Below, piece by piece: positions 12,481-17,724 of a stretch of DNA of 17,724 bases (position 1 is the first letter of the stretch; each line of letters begins with the position of its first letter). This stretch comes from Lachnospiraceae bacterium (GTDB lineage: Bacteria; Bacillota; Clostridia; Lachnospirales; Lachnospiraceae). Made by a program: the position numbers and the translations under genes. The notes below the pieces were generated by a model. The model was given only the letters and a program-made list of their open reading frames with translations, was not told the origin of the DNA and ran no database searches. The stretch is taken from assembly GCA_900772675.1 (NCBI GenBank), contig CAAGRM010000142.1:1-17724 (forward strand). Reading direction: 5' to 3'.

Positions 12481-12738
12481 CCTTTTTTTCGGGGCGTATC
12501 CGAGAAGAACGCTCAGTGAAAAAGTCGGAAGATGTAGAAAGCAGGCAGGGTTAAGATGAATTTCTTTCAAAAACAGAACAGAAAATAATAGCCAAAAAGA
12601 AGTGCAGAAATTGCGATACGATTCTACGAATCCGTGAAAATCGAAAAACCTTTCACGCGACTTTTCAAATCGGCGTGAGAAATTTTCCACGCATTTTTGG
12701 AGGCAATTCACAAACCGGAAAAAGTTGTCGAAAACCGC

Positions 12739-12767
12739 TGGACAAATCGAGAGGGGGAAACTATAAT
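12739..12767 (+). promoter_or_regulatory. Promoter of the tad pilus operon
   Basis: TGGACA (12739-12744) matches the -35 consensus at five of six positions and is 17 bases from a perfect TATAAT (12762-12767). Transcription would begin near 12774, about 42 bases before the peptidase ATG. The ribosome site GGGAGGTGA (12799-12807) follows. Confidence 0.7.
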
Positions 12768-12815
12768 GACCTCACAATCAAGTTAAGCCAAACGAAACGG
12801 GAGGTGAGAGACAAG

Positions 12816-13343
12816 ATGTCTTTGCAGCACTGTCTGGTACTGACAGTTGCGACAGGGGCGGTGTGGATGGATTTAAGAACACGCAAAATTGCAAATGAAT
12901 GGATTATCACCGCATGGGTTGCCGGGCTGGTTACACAGCTCATCCGCTATGGCGCCGCGGGAGCGGGTATTTTTCTTTTAGGGATGCTTTTCCCGATACT
13001 CGCACTTTACATTCTGTTCTATTTTCATATGCTGGGCGCGGGAGATATCAAACTCCTATCCGCTGTTGGAGGCTTTCTCGGTGTACCGGCGATCCTGAAA
13101 TGTATGATTGTGTCGTTCCTGTCTGGAGCGGTCTTATCTATCGGAATTATTCTCGTCTGCGGAAACTTACCGCAGCGTCTTACCAAATTTTTCAATTATT
13201 TCCAAACTTATTTTACCAAAAGAAAATACCAGAAAAAAACAGAGCCGGTTCCCTATTACGATGGGAAGTGGGGGATGGAGTGCATCCATTTTTCCGTCCC
13301 CGTGCTGATGGGAGTGCTGCTCTGGATTGGGGGATTTTATTGA
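12816..13343 (+). CDS. Prepilin peptidase, A24 family (TadV/CpaA-like)
   Basis: This 175-residue membrane aspartyl protease would cleave the leader of Flp-type prepilins before pilus assembly. The two catalytic aspartates are D19 in WMDLRTRKI and D77 in the signature GAGDIK (74-79). There are about five hydrophobic segments, near 5-18, 30-70, 80-110 and 155-174. It lacks the N-methylation domain of long PilD enzymes, as CpaA/TadV proteins do. I choose the ATG at 12816 because GGGAGGTGA (12799-12807) lies about 8 bases upstream and the earlier in-frame ATG has none. The last codon overlaps a TTG start of the TadZ-like gene, so it is the first gene of the pilus operon. Confidence 0.88.
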   Translation: MSLQHCLVLTVATGAVWMDLRTRKIANEWIITAWVAGLVTQLIRYGAAGAGIFLLGMLFPILALYILFYFHMLGAGDIKLLSAVGGFLGVPAILKCMIVSFLSGAVLSIGIILVCGNLPQRLTKFFNYFQTYFTKRKYQKKTEPVPYYDGKWGMECIHFSVPVLMGVLLWIGGFY

Positions 13344-14377
13344 ATACTGCAAAGAAAAAGAGTGTTTTTGCAGTCTGCGACACGGAAATGGAGTATGCGC
13401 GCAATTTTATGGAATATCTGAATCAGAAGAGGAATATTCCGTTCGAAGTGCATGCATTTTCGAGCGCAGAGATGTTTCTGGAATTCGCAAAAAACAACGA
13501 AACAGAGATCCTTCTGATTTCAGATAAAGCGATGAAAGAAGAGATCCGCCGGTATCCGATCCGTCAGATTATTATTCTCTCGGAGGGAGTGCACAGTCCC
13601 GTGCTGGATCAGTATCCGGCGGTCTACAAATATCAGTCGTCGGAAAAGGTGATTCGGGAGGTCATGGCGTGCTACGGTGTGGAAAACGGTGTCAATACAT
13701 CACCCGCATTGCTACCTAAAAAGGAAATGCGTGTGATTGGCATTTATTCGCCGGTCGGACGGACACAGAAAACTTCGTTTGCCCTGACAATGGGACAGAT
13801 TCTGGCAAAGGAACGGGCGGTGCTGTATCTGAATATGGAAAGCTATTCCGGATTTGAAAAGCTGCTGGAATGCAGCTATGACAGAGGAATGAGCGATATT
13901 CTGTACTATGCGAGACAGGAGAACCAGGGAATTATCTATAAGCTGGGCGGAATGGTTCAGTCGATGCAAAATCTGGACTATCTGCCGCCCGCCGCGTCGC
14001 CGATGGACATTCAGACTGCAAAATATGAAGAGTGGAAATGGCTGTTTCAGGAAATTGAGAAGAACAGCAGCTATGAAGTGTTGATTCTCGATCTTGGCGA
14101 TGGCGTGGCAGATTTATATCAGATTCTTGATTTTTGCGATGAAATTTACGTTCCGACACGGAATGATGTGATTTCTGCAGCTAAAATGGATCAGTTTGAA
14201 ACGCTGCTGCGCCGGTGGGACTGCCAGGCGGTACTGGACAAGATGCGAAAACTTCACGTTCCGTTTCACACGGCAAACAGGACAGGAAAGGCATACTTTG
14301 AAGAACTCGTCTGGAGTGAGCTGGGTGACTATGTGCGTCAGATTCTGCGGGATGGCAGAAGGGGAGAAGAAACATGA
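13340..14377 (+). CDS. TadZ/CpaE-like pilus localisation ATPase
   Basis: This 345-residue protein of the TadZ/CpaE group belongs to the MinD/ParA superfamily and directs the Tad machine to its cellular site. Residues 1-125 form a receiver-like domain; residues 130-345 form the ATPase domain. The P-loop region is SPVGRTQKTS (137-146), with K144-T145 but Q143 where Gly is expected and no MinD-type signature Lys. Walker A' lies around LYLNMESYSGF and Walker B is LILDLGDG (248-255). The start is a TTG at 13340 that overlaps the peptidase stop (TTGA) and has GGGGGA (13329-13334) upstream; the longer frame from 12899 merely overlaps the peptidase. The tadA start overlaps its stop by four bases. Confidence 0.82.
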   Translation: MNTAKKKSVFAVCDTEMEYARNFMEYLNQKRNIPFEVHAFSSAEMFLEFAKNNETEILLISDKAMKEEIRRYPIRQIIILSEGVHSPVLDQYPAVYKYQSSEKVIREVMACYGVENGVNTSPALLPKKEMRVIGIYSPVGRTQKTSFALTMGQILAKERAVLYLNMESYSGFEKLLECSYDRGMSDILYYARQENQGIIYKLGGMVQSMQNLDYLPPAASPMDIQTAKYEEWKWLFQEIEKNSSYEVLILDLGDGVADLYQILDFCDEIYVPTRNDVISAAKMDQFETLLRRWDCQAVLDKMRKLHVPFHTANRTGKAYFEELVWSELGDYVRQILRDGRRGEET

Positions 14378-15552
14378 ATCTGTCAGAGATTCTGCGAAGA
14401 AAACTGATGGAACGAATCGATATCGTATCTGAGCCGGATGACGGGGAAGTACTGGAAGAGATTGACCGTCTGATTTTAGGTGAGGCAGAAACACGGTATC
14501 TTCCGGTAGCACAGAAGGCGGAGCTGCGCCGGCAGTTGTTTTACAGTGTGCGGCGGCTCGATGTCCTGCAGGATCTGCTGGAGGATGCGGGGATTACCGA
14601 AATTATGGTAAATGGGTATCAGCACATTTTCGTAGAACGAAATGGGGCCATCGAGCGATATGGAAAAAGCTTTACTTCAGCAGAAAAGCTGGAGGATGTG
14701 ATTCAGCAGATTGTGGGCAGGTGCAATCGAGTAGTGAACGAACAGAATCCGATCGTGGATGCACGGCTGGAAAATGGCGACCGCGTCAACGTTGTTATGA
14801 AACCTGTCGCACTGAACGGACCGATTCTGACAATCCGCCGATTTCCGGAGCAGGCGGTGACGATGGAATTTCTGGTCTCCATCGGGAGTATTACAAAAGA
14901 GGCGGCAGAGCTTCTGCAGAGCCTCGTCCGGACCCGTTACAGTATGATGATCAGCGGGGCAACCGGATCTGGAAAAACAACATTTCTGAATGCGCTTTCC
15001 GCCTATATTCCAAAAGGCGAGCGCATCATAACCATCGAAGACAATGCAGAGCTGCAGATACAGGGCGTTGATAATCTGGTGCGGCTGGAAGCAAAAGAGG
15101 CAAATCTGGAAGCAGGAACAGAGATTACAATTCGCGATCTGATCCGCACGGCGCTGCGTATGCGGCCGAGCCGTGTCATCATCGGGGAGGTGCGCGGGGC
15201 GGAAGCGTTTGAGTTATTATCCGCACTCAATACAGGCCATGCGGGGTCTTTGAGCACGGTACATGCAAACAGTGTGAAAGATATGATTTCCCGCCTGGAA
15301 ACGATGGTGCTGATGGGGGTTCAGCTCCCACTGGAAGCAATCAGGCGTCAGATTGCATCGGGAATTGAGATTCTTGTGCATCTGGGGCGCGGGGAGGATG
15401 GAAGCCGTCGGGTGGAGGAGATCGCAGAGATCACAGGGATGGAGGAGGACGAAATCAAAACGGTTTCTTTGTTTCGAAGAGAGTATGGAAAGGGACTGCA
15501 GAAGGCAGGAGAACTGGTACACAGGGAAAAACTGGAGGGAAAAACAGGATGA
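14374..15552 (+). CDS. cpaF: TadA/CpaF pilus assembly ATPase
   Basis: This 392-residue secretion ATPase of the type II/IV (VirB11/CpaF) family powers assembly, and in some species retraction, of Tad pili at the cytoplasmic face of the membrane. The N-terminal domain has the LEDAGITEIMVNG motif near 70-81. Walker A is GATGSGKT (195-202), the Asp box region follows with TIEDNAELQ, Walker B is RVIIGEVR (267-274), and the His box is HAGSLSTVHANS. All motifs are intact and the length is normal. AGGGGAGAAG lies upstream of the ATG, which overlaps the TadZ gene by four bases; the tadB start overlaps its stop in the same way, so the genes are tightly coupled. Confidence 0.93.
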   Translation: MNLSEILRRKLMERIDIVSEPDDGEVLEEIDRLILGEAETRYLPVAQKAELRRQLFYSVRRLDVLQDLLEDAGITEIMVNGYQHIFVERNGAIERYGKSFTSAEKLEDVIQQIVGRCNRVVNEQNPIVDARLENGDRVNVVMKPVALNGPILTIRRFPEQAVTMEFLVSIGSITKEAAELLQSLVRTRYSMMISGATGSGKTTFLNALSAYIPKGERIITIEDNAELQIQGVDNLVRLEAKEANLEAGTEITIRDLIRTALRMRPSRVIIGEVRGAEAFELLSALNTGHAGSLSTVHANSVKDMISRLETMVLMGVQLPLEAIRRQIASGIEILVHLGRGEDGSRRVEEIAEITGMEEDEIKTVSLFRREYGKGLQKAGELVHREKLEGKTG

Positions 15553-16349
15553 GGATACGTGCGAGAAGCCCGGCGAAAACGGGCACGATTGCGGAGAAAA
15601 AGACAAAGGGAATCAATTATCAGATATGGAACCTTACCGGAAGGGAGTATCTTGAAATAACGGGAAGTAGTCTGGTACTTGCTGCAGCAGTAAATCTGCT
15701 CTGCTATCGGTCATGGTGGGCATCTGTTCTGTCTATTCCAATAGAATTTGTGTGCATTCGTATATACCGGAAAAAAAGAATTCAGAAACGGAAAGAGGAG
15801 TTGTACGACAGCTTCCGTGATCTGATTGCGTGGATGCATACGGCGCTGCGTTCCGGGTATTCCATGGAAAATGCAGTCCTGGAGGCAGCAGAACAACTGG
15901 AGCAATCACTTGGGAAGGAGAATGTTCTGGTAGAGGAGTTGCATCAGATGCGACATAAAATGACGCTTTCCGTGCCGGTGGAGCAGTTGTTTCTGGATCT
16001 TGCCATGCGCAGCCGGATCGAAGATATCGAAACCTTTGCAAGTGTGCTGATCATTGCGAAGCGGACCGGGGGAAATATCTGTGAGGTGCTTCAGAATACC
16101 TGGGATATTTTCTGTACCAGAATGGATACGATGCGGGAAATCCGAGCGGGAGTTTCTTCCCGGCGGTTTGAGCAGAATATTATGAGCATTGTACCGTTTG
16201 GAATTCTGATATATGTTCAGATTTCTTTTCCGGAATTCCTTAGGGGAATGTATGGGAATGTCATCGGGGTTTTATTTATGAGCGGATGTCTTGCCACATA
16301 CCTGGCAGCATGGGTGCTTGGAAAGAAAATTCTGGAAGTTGAGTTTTAA
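15549..16349 (+). CDS. tadB: TadB-like type II secretion F family platform protein
   Basis: This is a 266-residue inner-membrane platform protein of the Tad pilus, related to GspF/PilC. Two hydrophobic segments near 36-53 and 57-73 come first. A cytoplasmic T2SSF helical domain follows (about 88-205; LRSGYSMENAV at 100-110 and AKRTGGN at 170-176 are the family repeats). Two more membrane segments lie near 212-228 and 236-258. It is somewhat shorter than proteobacterial TadB (~320), mostly at the N-terminus. GGAGGGA (15534-15540) lies 8 bases before the ATG, which overlaps tadA by four bases. The TadB versus TadC assignment rests on gene order. Confidence 0.88.
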   Translation: MRIRARSPAKTGTIAEKKTKGINYQIWNLTGREYLEITGSSLVLAAAVNLLCYRSWWASVLSIPIEFVCIRIYRKKRIQKRKEELYDSFRDLIAWMHTALRSGYSMENAVLEAAEQLEQSLGKENVLVEELHQMRHKMTLSVPVEQLFLDLAMRSRIEDIETFASVLIIAKRTGGNICEVLQNTWDIFCTRMDTMREIRAGVSSRRFEQNIMSIVPFGILIYVQISFPEFLRGMYGNVIGVLFMSGCLATYLAAWVLGKKILEVEF

Positions 16350-16412
16350 AATGGATTAGAGCGTGTTTGAAAGTAAAATACGAATCAGAAGGATTCGTCC
16401 GCAAAAAAAACA

Positions 16413-16425: not shown

Positions 16426-17724
16426 ATGTTGTGGATTTGTCTGACCGCATGGGCGGGGCTGTTCATCTGGTATTTCCGGATGAGAAAAAGGGCGGAAAAT
16501 CACAAACTGGTGAGACGGATTTTCTGCCTTGCAGCGACAGGGTTTATAGCAGGCACTGCACTCTGCCTTCCGATCGGAGTGCGAAAAGTTTCAGGAGAGG
16601 AAAAAGCGGAACTTCAACTGGAACGGGGTGCCTTAGGCGGCCAACCGACAGAGGAAAAACTCGAGGTTTCTGTTGGAAATCAGAAACCGGAGAGAATTAC
16701 ACTGTCTGTACCGGCAAGAGCTTACAGCGCAGAAGAGATAGAAGAGGCATTTGGCGCGGCGATAGAGGCGTTGGATGAAATCATCTTGGGTGAGAATCTG
16801 TCTTTTCGTACGGTAAACAGAAACATGGATCTGGTTACGGAAATACCGGGAAGTCCGGTGGCGCTTAGCTGGGAAACAGACAGGCCGTTGTTGATTGACA
16901 GCCGGGGTTTGCTGTCAGATGAGATCCCAAAGGAAGGTGCGGAGGTTACCGTAAAAGCTGAAGTGGAGCTTCAGGGGGAGACAACAGAATATATCCGAAA
17001 GGTTCAGGTATATCCCATACAGATGGAAGGACGGGAGAAAATTTTACAAGAGCTGCAGAAAGCGGTGGAAAAAAGAAATGAAGCACACCCGGAGGAGGCA
17101 GCCTACTATCTGCCGGAACGTCTGAACGGAGAAACCTTAACCTGGTCAAAAGTACCGGATCTGACGGGTCTGGAACTGATGATCCTTGTCGCGGCGGCCG
17201 GAGCAGCCTGCTGGGCGGCAAAAGGCAGAGAAGAAGAAAAAGCACGGCAGAAACGGGAAGAACAGATGCTGCGGGATTATCCTGAAATCATCAGTAAAAT
17301 GGTTCTTCTTTTAGGAGCCGGACTTGGTATGCGGAAGGTACTGGAGCGGATCGTGACGGATTACCGGAAAAGTCTCGCACTTGGCGGGAAGAAGCGCTTT
17401 GCATATGAAGAGCTTCTGCTGACCTGCATGGAGATGGACAACGGTATTCCCGAGCAGGAAGCATACCAGCGCATGGGAATGCGTATGGGAACAGGAGCAT
17501 ATCGTTCTCTTGCCGTTCTGCTGACGCAGAACCTGAAAAAAGGCAGTAAAGGACTGCTGGAACTATTGAAACAGGAATCGCAGGAAGCTTTTGAGGAGAG
17601 AAGAAGGCAGGCGAAAACAACAGGCGAAAAGGCATCGACAAAGCTTCTTCTTCCGATGGGCATGATGCTTGCGGTTGTATTGGTCATACTCACGGTTCCG
17701 GCATTTTTGTCCTTTTATGCATAG
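16426..17724 (+). CDS. tadC: TadC-like T2SSF protein with large extracytoplasmic insert
   Basis: This 432-residue protein is the second platform subunit of the Tad machine, with an unusual front half. Membrane segments lie near 2-17 and 28-51. Residues about 52-245 are then hydrophilic and should face outside. Within them, 80-133 holds a YSAEEIEEAFGAAIEAL helix and an ILGENLSF turn, and 134-197 reads like a degenerate bacterial Ig-like domain (LSWETDRP, IDSRGLL, AEVTVKAEVEL). A third membrane segment is at 249-265. A cytoplasmic T2SSF-like domain (YPEIISKMVLLLGAGLGMRK, NGIPEQEAYQRMG, RQAKTTGEKASTKLLLPMG) and a final segment (407-431) follow. It begins 76 bases after tadB, and its stop is the last codon in the window. 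Confidence 0.85.
   Translation: MLWICLTAWAGLFIWYFRMRKRAENHKLVRRIFCLAATGFIAGTALCLPIGVRKVSGEEKAELQLERGALGGQPTEEKLEVSVGNQKPERITLSVPARAYSAEEIEEAFGAAIEALDEIILGENLSFRTVNRNMDLVTEIPGSPVALSWETDRPLLIDSRGLLSDEIPKEGAEVTVKAEVELQGETTEYIRKVQVYPIQMEGREKILQELQKAVEKRNEAHPEEAAYYLPERLNGETLTWSKVPDLTGLELMILVAAAGAACWAAKGREEEKARQKREEQMLRDYPEIISKMVLLLGAGLGMRKVLERIVTDYRKSLALGGKKRFAYEELLLTCMEMDNGIPEQEAYQRMGMRMGTGAYRSLAVLLTQNLKKGSKGLLELLKQESQEAFEERRRQAKTTGEKASTKLLLPMGMMLAVVLVILTVPAFLSFYA

Follow-up and report, generated by a model that had tools for sequence, protein, structure and literature searches.

Introduction

According to a 2023 review, no core protein of type 4 filaments is as poorly characterised as the platform (PMC10191384; sources given by PMC number are represented here by excerpts). 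Most platforms of the GspF, PilC and ComGB kind, from type II secretion, type IVa pili and Com systems, carry two T2SSF domains per chain (PMC10191384). For Tad systems, published models place a trimer of TadB/TadC heterodimers beneath the filament (PMC13170226, PMC11300603, PMC10790770). In PulF, the loop that joins the first and second membrane segments is short and periplasmic (PMC10790770), and the dodecameric RcpC ring serves as a filament conduit (PMC12307814). How the Tad assembly complex holds together in one-membrane bacteria is a question raised by a 2019 review (PMC6916266). Imam et al. (2011) had already grouped clostridial tad operons and noted rcpC in some of the groups, so CpaB in clostridial Tad loci is not new; the excerpt of that survey mentions no Ig domain in TadC (PMC3244431).

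Here we describe a TadC protein encoded in a 17,724-nucleotide stretch of DNA from a Lachnospiraceae bacterium (contig CAAGRM010000142.1, hereafter the window). It resembles canonical TadC (CpaH) in its one T2SSF domain, its four predicted membrane segments and its place beside tadB and tadA, but its TM2-TM3 hairpin spans 195 residues and bears a predicted Ig-like domain, whereas short clostridial hairpins measure -3 to 10 residues. The Tad machine is known; the Ig-bearing TadC variant appears to be new, since none of the top matches listed in searches of the open-licence literature described an Ig domain in TadC, and the Ig mentions in the excerpts of PMC11178852, PMC4858521 and PMC13319060 concern other proteins. 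We propose tentatively, at somewhat less than an even chance, that the Ig domains form an outward-facing collar where the pilus leaves the platform, and that this collar receives or steadies the filament where loci lack CpaB/RcpC. A platform with its own outward domain would make the one-membrane question testable, because the domain can be removed in frame, and natural controls exist in sister systems without the Ig domain and in genomes where the two kinds of system occur together.

Results

The window encodes a TadC protein with a long hairpin

The tad genes of the window form a same-strand run in the order tadV, tadZ, tadA, tadB and tadC, with tadC last:

12675..13343, + strand: tadV-like prepilin peptidase gene, longest ORF (Peptidase_A24, E 3.7e-10)
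12899..14377, + strand: tadZ-like gene, longest ORF, true start further in (profile match; TadZ-like_ARD on the L001 orthologue)
14374..15552, + strand: tadA (CpaF-type) ATPase gene (T2SSE, E 9e-54; TIGR03819, E 3.2e-86, below its cut-off)
15549..16349, + strand: tadB, partner platform protein of 266 aa without the insert (T2SSF, E 3.7e-7)
16426..17724, + strand: tadC-like gene, platform protein of 432 aa with a predicted extracytoplasmic Ig-like domain (ORF, T2SSF, homologues)

The tadC frame runs from ATG at 16426 to the stop at 17722-17724 and gives 432 residues; a longer alternative from GTG at 16363 would give 453 aa. The orthologue of Fusicatenibacter saccharivorans (L001, a single locus from a single-protein scan of named genomes) also has 432 aa from ATG and is 91% identical. 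The earlier note had taken the gene for tadC, and this identity holds: T2SSF (PF00482) matches residues 289-425 as a single domain above its cut-off (E 1.4e-7, 31.9 bits against 25.2), next to tadB and tadA. The cytoplasmic part has the helical fold of EpsF/PilC. Among 7996 candidates scored, 208 homologues were found at E<=1e-3. From the window protein and the 120 of these matches that were listed, 121 in all, 71 full-length, diverse sequences were aligned, leaving out fragments, near-copies and likely chimeras; T2SSF was matched at E<=0.01 in 70 of the 71.

Hydropathy gave hydrophobic segments at about residues 1-19 (weak), 32-50, 246-264 and 403-432. The parts of the protein are as follows:

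16426..16482, + strand: TM1, weak, predicted out-to-in, residues 1-19 (hydropathy, charges)
16519..16575, + strand: TM2, residues 32-50 (hydropathy; helix H26-55 in the AlphaFold2 model)
16579..17160, + strand: predicted ectodomain within the TM2-TM3 hairpin, residues 52-245 (hydropathy, charges, AlphaFold2)
16579..16728, + strand: stalk, N-terminal part, residues 52-101, with predicted beta strands 75-82 and 89-95 (AlphaFold2)
16729..17016, + strand: Ig-like domain with its leading helix, residues 102-197 (profile and structure comparison)
17017..17160, + strand: stalk, C-terminal part, residues 198-245, with helix 203-218, invariant L229-P230 and W at 240
17161..17220, + strand: TM3, about residues 246-265, beginning a long helix into the cytoplasm (hydropathy, AlphaFold2)
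17290..17700, + strand: T2SSF cytoplasmic domain, residues 289-425, taking in part of TM4
17632..17721, + strand: TM4, residues 403-432 (hydropathy)

The hairpin is predicted to lie outside the membrane and to hold an Ig-like sandwich

The loop after TM1 (residues 18-32), predicted to be cytoplasmic, is positive, with 7 K/R against 1 D/E, and the hydrophilic ectodomain has 23 K/R, 39 D/E and no Cys; the ectodomain is therefore predicted to sit outside. The 25 residues past TM3 are neutral (7 K/R and 7 D/E). Topology and charge thus point the same way as the extracytoplasmic placement put forward earlier, as predictions.

The AlphaFold2 model of the whole protein, built on 71 sequences, had a pLDDT of 82.3 and bore out the beta pattern; for the ectodomain alone, on 34 sequences, it was 89.8, with 9 of the 10 blocks that make up the Ig part scoring at least 95. 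The modelled order is two strands, a long helix (102-121), the sandwich, helix 203-218, the LP motif, a W and TM3. A fold search matched the predicted sandwich to a solved Ig-like domain. Structure prediction and fold search thus favour the Ig-like beta-sandwich proposed in the earlier note, and its beta pattern is real; the domain does not occupy the second half of the ectodomain as was stated there, but its middle (residues 102-197), with stalk on both sides. The Pfam Ig model gave no match to the window TadC at E<=1, and the curated score of PF20578 (aBig_2, Atrophied bacterial Ig) was not reached. This family is among the closest known ones all the same: it matched 43 of the 71 aligned sequences at E<=0.01 and exceeded its cut-off in the TadC of G039 and G011 (2 of the 3 genomes searched), with no match in genome G001. 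Foldseek also returned a weak resemblance to shaft domains of the T9SS (GldM and PorM, E 0.07 and 0.11).

The nearest solved domain to the Ig part is residues 549-638 of the arabinanase AbnA (5ho0). AbnA is a secreted enzyme, whereas the TadC domain sits on a stalk of its own within the hairpin of a membrane protein. A function shared with AbnA was considered and rejected, the fold alone being in common. That the nearest domain comes from a secreted carbohydrate-active enzyme, and that the ectodomain profile part also matches stretches of very large open frames found in genomes from the same order, would fit an Ig domain that anchors the machine by binding peptidoglycan or a glycan of the wall, in line with the hold at the wall suggested in the earlier note. 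The matched domain is presumably a non-catalytic part of AbnA, which counts against such an anchor. A search of the AbnA paper for Ig terms and third-domain names found none of these, and turned up no mention of sugar binding by the domain. We consider a wall anchor quite improbable and retain the collar at the pilus exit as the preferred reading.

Residues W149, G161, L229 and P230 were invariant in all 71 aligned sequences; the W-x-T/S motif and D-S-x-G turn picked out earlier are thus real features. Ectodomain length and motifs recurred in relatives down to 30-35% identity, and dN/dS between the window and its orthologue (one pair) was 0.155 for the ectodomain, 0.097 for the Ig part and 0.121 from residue 246 onward, consistent with purifying selection, so the pattern is not due to chance. 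The ectodomain was less conserved than the rest, with a mean pairwise identity of 0.29 across the 71 sequences versus 0.45 for residues 246-432.

Hairpin length is bimodal

The TM2-TM3 gap was taken by a crude hydropathy measure in 73 TadC rows taken from the window and from the loci retrieved, two of which occur twice. It was -3 to 10 residues in 24 rows, 4 of them TadB-TadC fusions, and 189-224 in 45. The other 4 gave no clear value, as TM3 was missed in L069, the frame of L029 is broken, and L070 and L048 could not be measured. At 195 residues the window protein lacks the short hairpin that is usual, not strictly defining, for TadC, and the insert is missing from the short TadC proteins measured, as the earlier note had expected. 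None of the three outcomes that the note named as refuting it was obtained. Three long-gap proteins (L040, L041 and L047) were missed by the ectodomain profile and other long rows scored low; in profile-profile comparison the divergent ectodomains aligned with the main profile (A4, probability 99.6%; A3, 97.2%).

Two relatives from the class and phylum samples described below, L081 and L082, have a reduced ectodomain of about 105 residues. A stalk-only profile matched L081 at E 4e-4 and L082 at E 0.94; thus L081, not L082, may represent a stalk without the Ig part. Extracytoplasmic hairpins tolerate inserts, and these two reduced forms could be read as signs of a spacer or tolerated elaboration with no specific role. 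The low dN/dS of the Ig part in the one pair compared, the W, G and LP residues invariant in 71 sequences and the bimodal length all count against this, and we find a mere spacer highly improbable beside the filament-receiving collar.

Ig-bearing TadC is common in one order

In the order of the L001 genome, 75 of 147 genomes matched the TadC alignment, and full-length Ig-bearing TadC was common, with 52 loci in 51 genomes. It was found in 12 of 245 genomes of the class sample, 9 of which were already in the order sample, and was rare in the phylum sample (4 of 299, all four from the order sample). In the class sample, 42 rows from 41 genomes matched the last part of the protein alone (E 1e-52 to 2e-27); the seven of these that were measured (L059-L065) were all short TadC. 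Ig-bearing TadC also occurred in 3 of the 21 genomes, G297 included, of the order of G297. This apparently is a second order, because its 21 genomes share none with the 147, which sampling could explain too.

The Ig-like part alone also matched large open frames of about 680-2725 aa in the same order (G073, G002, G043, G134 and others), and a 6391-aa open frame (G339:C228) held dozens of matches. Proteins of this kind may be the source from which TadC acquired its domain. Long frames in G389, G473 and G654 of the phylum sample were rejected as further domains, as they look like read-through upstream of short TadC, with CpaB near.

CpaB is absent from Ig-bearing loci

CpaB/RcpC carries a SAF-type domain. 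In the order sample, CpaB (TIGR03177) lay within 15 kb of 0 of 52 Ig-bearing loci versus 7 of 13 short-TadC loci (Fisher p 2.5e-6, uncorrected for kinship and overstating independence, because the loci are related); the other 6 short-TadC loci also lacked it within that distance, as did a further 8 rows of fragments and divergent ectodomain forms (0 of 8). The count covers 73 of 99 matching rows, with short rows marked by hand and the 15 kb taken regardless of contig ends. Rows were omitted if they were TadB-like, came from the second piece of a broken frame or were ectodomain matches within a large frame, and one partial row (G017) was dropped too. No TIGR03177 match was found in G001, and none on the contigs of the 12 Ig-bearing loci of the class sample.

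The mutual exclusion extends to single genomes: in G011, G039, G101, G297 and G339 both systems coexist, with a strong CpaB match by, or on the contig of, the short TadC. It would suit a history in which the Ig domain took over upon CpaB loss, standing in covalently for the CpaB/RcpC alignment ring (not for RcpA). CpaB-type TadC, however, formed one separate clade (99/99) in a tree of the cytoplasmic part (70 rows, after two duplicate fetches and the near-copy L041 had been dropped), and CpaB-less loci without Ig exist: close relatives lacking the insert (L038, L039, L046 and L059-L065) had no CpaB at the locus. CpaB loss and Ig gain were therefore not one step. Since some sister loci lack both, replacement is not general. 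Moreover, 13 of the 51 Ig genomes carried a CpaB-like match above 60 bits elsewhere. Three of them (G011, G039 and G101) had a short TadC beside it; in the other 10 none was found by alignment, so CpaB could in principle act in trans. With the p value inflated by kinship as well, a covalent replacement seems very unlikely, and the collar is preferred without assuming one.

Within the CpaB-free part of the tree, Ig-bearing and Ig-less TadC were intermingled, requiring at least 3 changes. A single Ig-bearing clade was not rejected by the AU test (p 0.343), several long branches disturbing parts of the tree.

The proposal of the earlier note that the domain replaces the outer-membrane component RcpA failed. 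No genome of the order sample, to which the window's own genome does not belong, had a secretin (PF00263) over the cut-off (0 of 147, with 7 weak partial matches); as the same sample contains 13 short-TadC loci, the lack of secretin does not track the Ig domain.

Ig-bearing loci share neighbouring genes with some short-TadC loci

In L001 the cluster extends beyond the point that matches the end of the window. After tadC it has a Flp-like ORF (recognised by eye), a DUF5702 gene and an ORF with a TadE/F-like hydrophobic stretch (also by eye) that had no Pfam match, followed by a second peptidase, a TadE protein and an FHA/DUF6382 protein. The Flp-like ORF (L001:9341-9517, 58 aa) has, by eye, V instead of Y following a conserved-looking E; a 'Flp-like' class with V in place of Y has been described (PMC3244431). 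The DUF6382-FHA protein (L001:13087-14580) lies inside the tad cluster. This architecture is known from type VII secretion variants, and other such variants adjoin tad genes (PMC11217815). One contig (L067, G053:C134) carries a pair of Ig-TadC genes separated by about 10 kb, each followed by DUF5702 genes; the genes upstream of the second copy fall beyond the stretch covered.

Among 16 Ig-bearing loci with at least 9 kb in hand, DUF5702 was present at 11, FHA/DUF6382 at 15, one or the other at all 16 and CpaB at none. Short-TadC loci with CpaB (n = 8) had one DUF5702 match, in a 142-aa ORF, and no FHA/DUF6382; those without CpaB (n = 11) had DUF5702 at 8, FHA/DUF6382 at 3 and neither at 3 within the available stretch. 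The Gram-positive Tad subtype suggested in the earlier note is partly supported, insofar as every one of the 16 Ig-bearing loci lacks CpaB and has a DUF5702 or FHA/DUF6382 neighbour; it is not Gram-positive-wide. Because 8 of the 11 CpaB-less short-TadC loci share such a neighbour, the Ig domain marks just part of the subtype, in one order and apparently a second.

Ig domains commonly serve as protein-binding modules. With DUF5702 near 11 of the 16 loci and TadE/TadF-like genes near several, the domain might be a docking site that holds TadE/TadF-like or DUF5702 proteins on the platform for filament start, not a guide for the shaft; minor pilins of Caulobacter have been modelled atop the CpaG/CpaH platform (PMC13170226). 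Short-TadC sisters (L038, L039, L043-L046, L059, L063 and L065) nevertheless combine DUF5702 and TadF-like genes with a TadC that lacks the Ig domain, and we regard docking as rather unlikely.

A collar at the pilus exit is the preferred reading

TadC identity, the place of the insert, the predicted fold, its conservation and the absence of CpaB at Ig loci were computed. We infer the outside location from topology prediction, the three-fold arrangement from homologues, and also filament contact and a guiding role. The outward TM2-TM3 hairpin of TadC would have grown into a stalk that bears a single Ig-like domain. Given the published trimer of heterodimers and a hairpin on the outer face, a TadB/TadC trimer above the hexameric ATPase would place three Ig domains round the pilus exit. 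There they might receive or steady the young Flp filament and its starting complex on the way from the membrane into the wall; this would apply to Tad systems with no CpaB/RcpC ring encoded at the locus. The published platform models, the short periplasmic loop of PulF and the RcpC conduit ring are grounds for the collar, along with the position of the insert in the outward hairpin, its bimodal length, the predicted Ig fold, the low dN/dS of the one pair and the CpaB pattern. The Ig domains and the CpaB/RcpC ring would both surround the filament and would share one side of the platform; the ring is a separate dodecameric protein (PMC12307814) and was not found at Ig loci. What speaks most strongly against a required guiding role is that a Tad locus of the CpaB-free subtype exists with neither Ig nor CpaB. 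The collar is also weakened by the lower conservation of the ectodomain, by the CpaB-like matches elsewhere in 13 Ig genomes and by the missing Pfam Ig match in the window protein. A stronger version, in which this is a distinct Tad architecture whose three Ig domains act as a collar that moves as the outward arm of the ATPase-driven platform, holding and aligning the filament and doing the job of the CpaB/RcpC ring within one motor-driven polypeptide, is in our estimate unlikely.

Fused and irregular TadC forms

At four loci (L055-L058, in G278, G300, G379 and G230) TadA is followed by one protein of 534-548 aa, an apparent TadB-TadC fusion with no insert. A 651-aa TadB-TadC(Ig) fusion in one frame occurred on a single contig (P0053). 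Near-identical TadC sequences P0010, P0014 and P0016 have in-frame gaps in or around the Ig domain; as single sequences they may be artefacts or natural deletions. In P0028, P0029, P0030 and P0034, on single contigs, the N-terminal half of TadC is joined to an FHA protein or to histidine kinases, and the three kinase fusions have a common breakpoint by eye; these are probably assembly chimeras. A short clostridial TadC used as query gave matches on 184 plasmid records.
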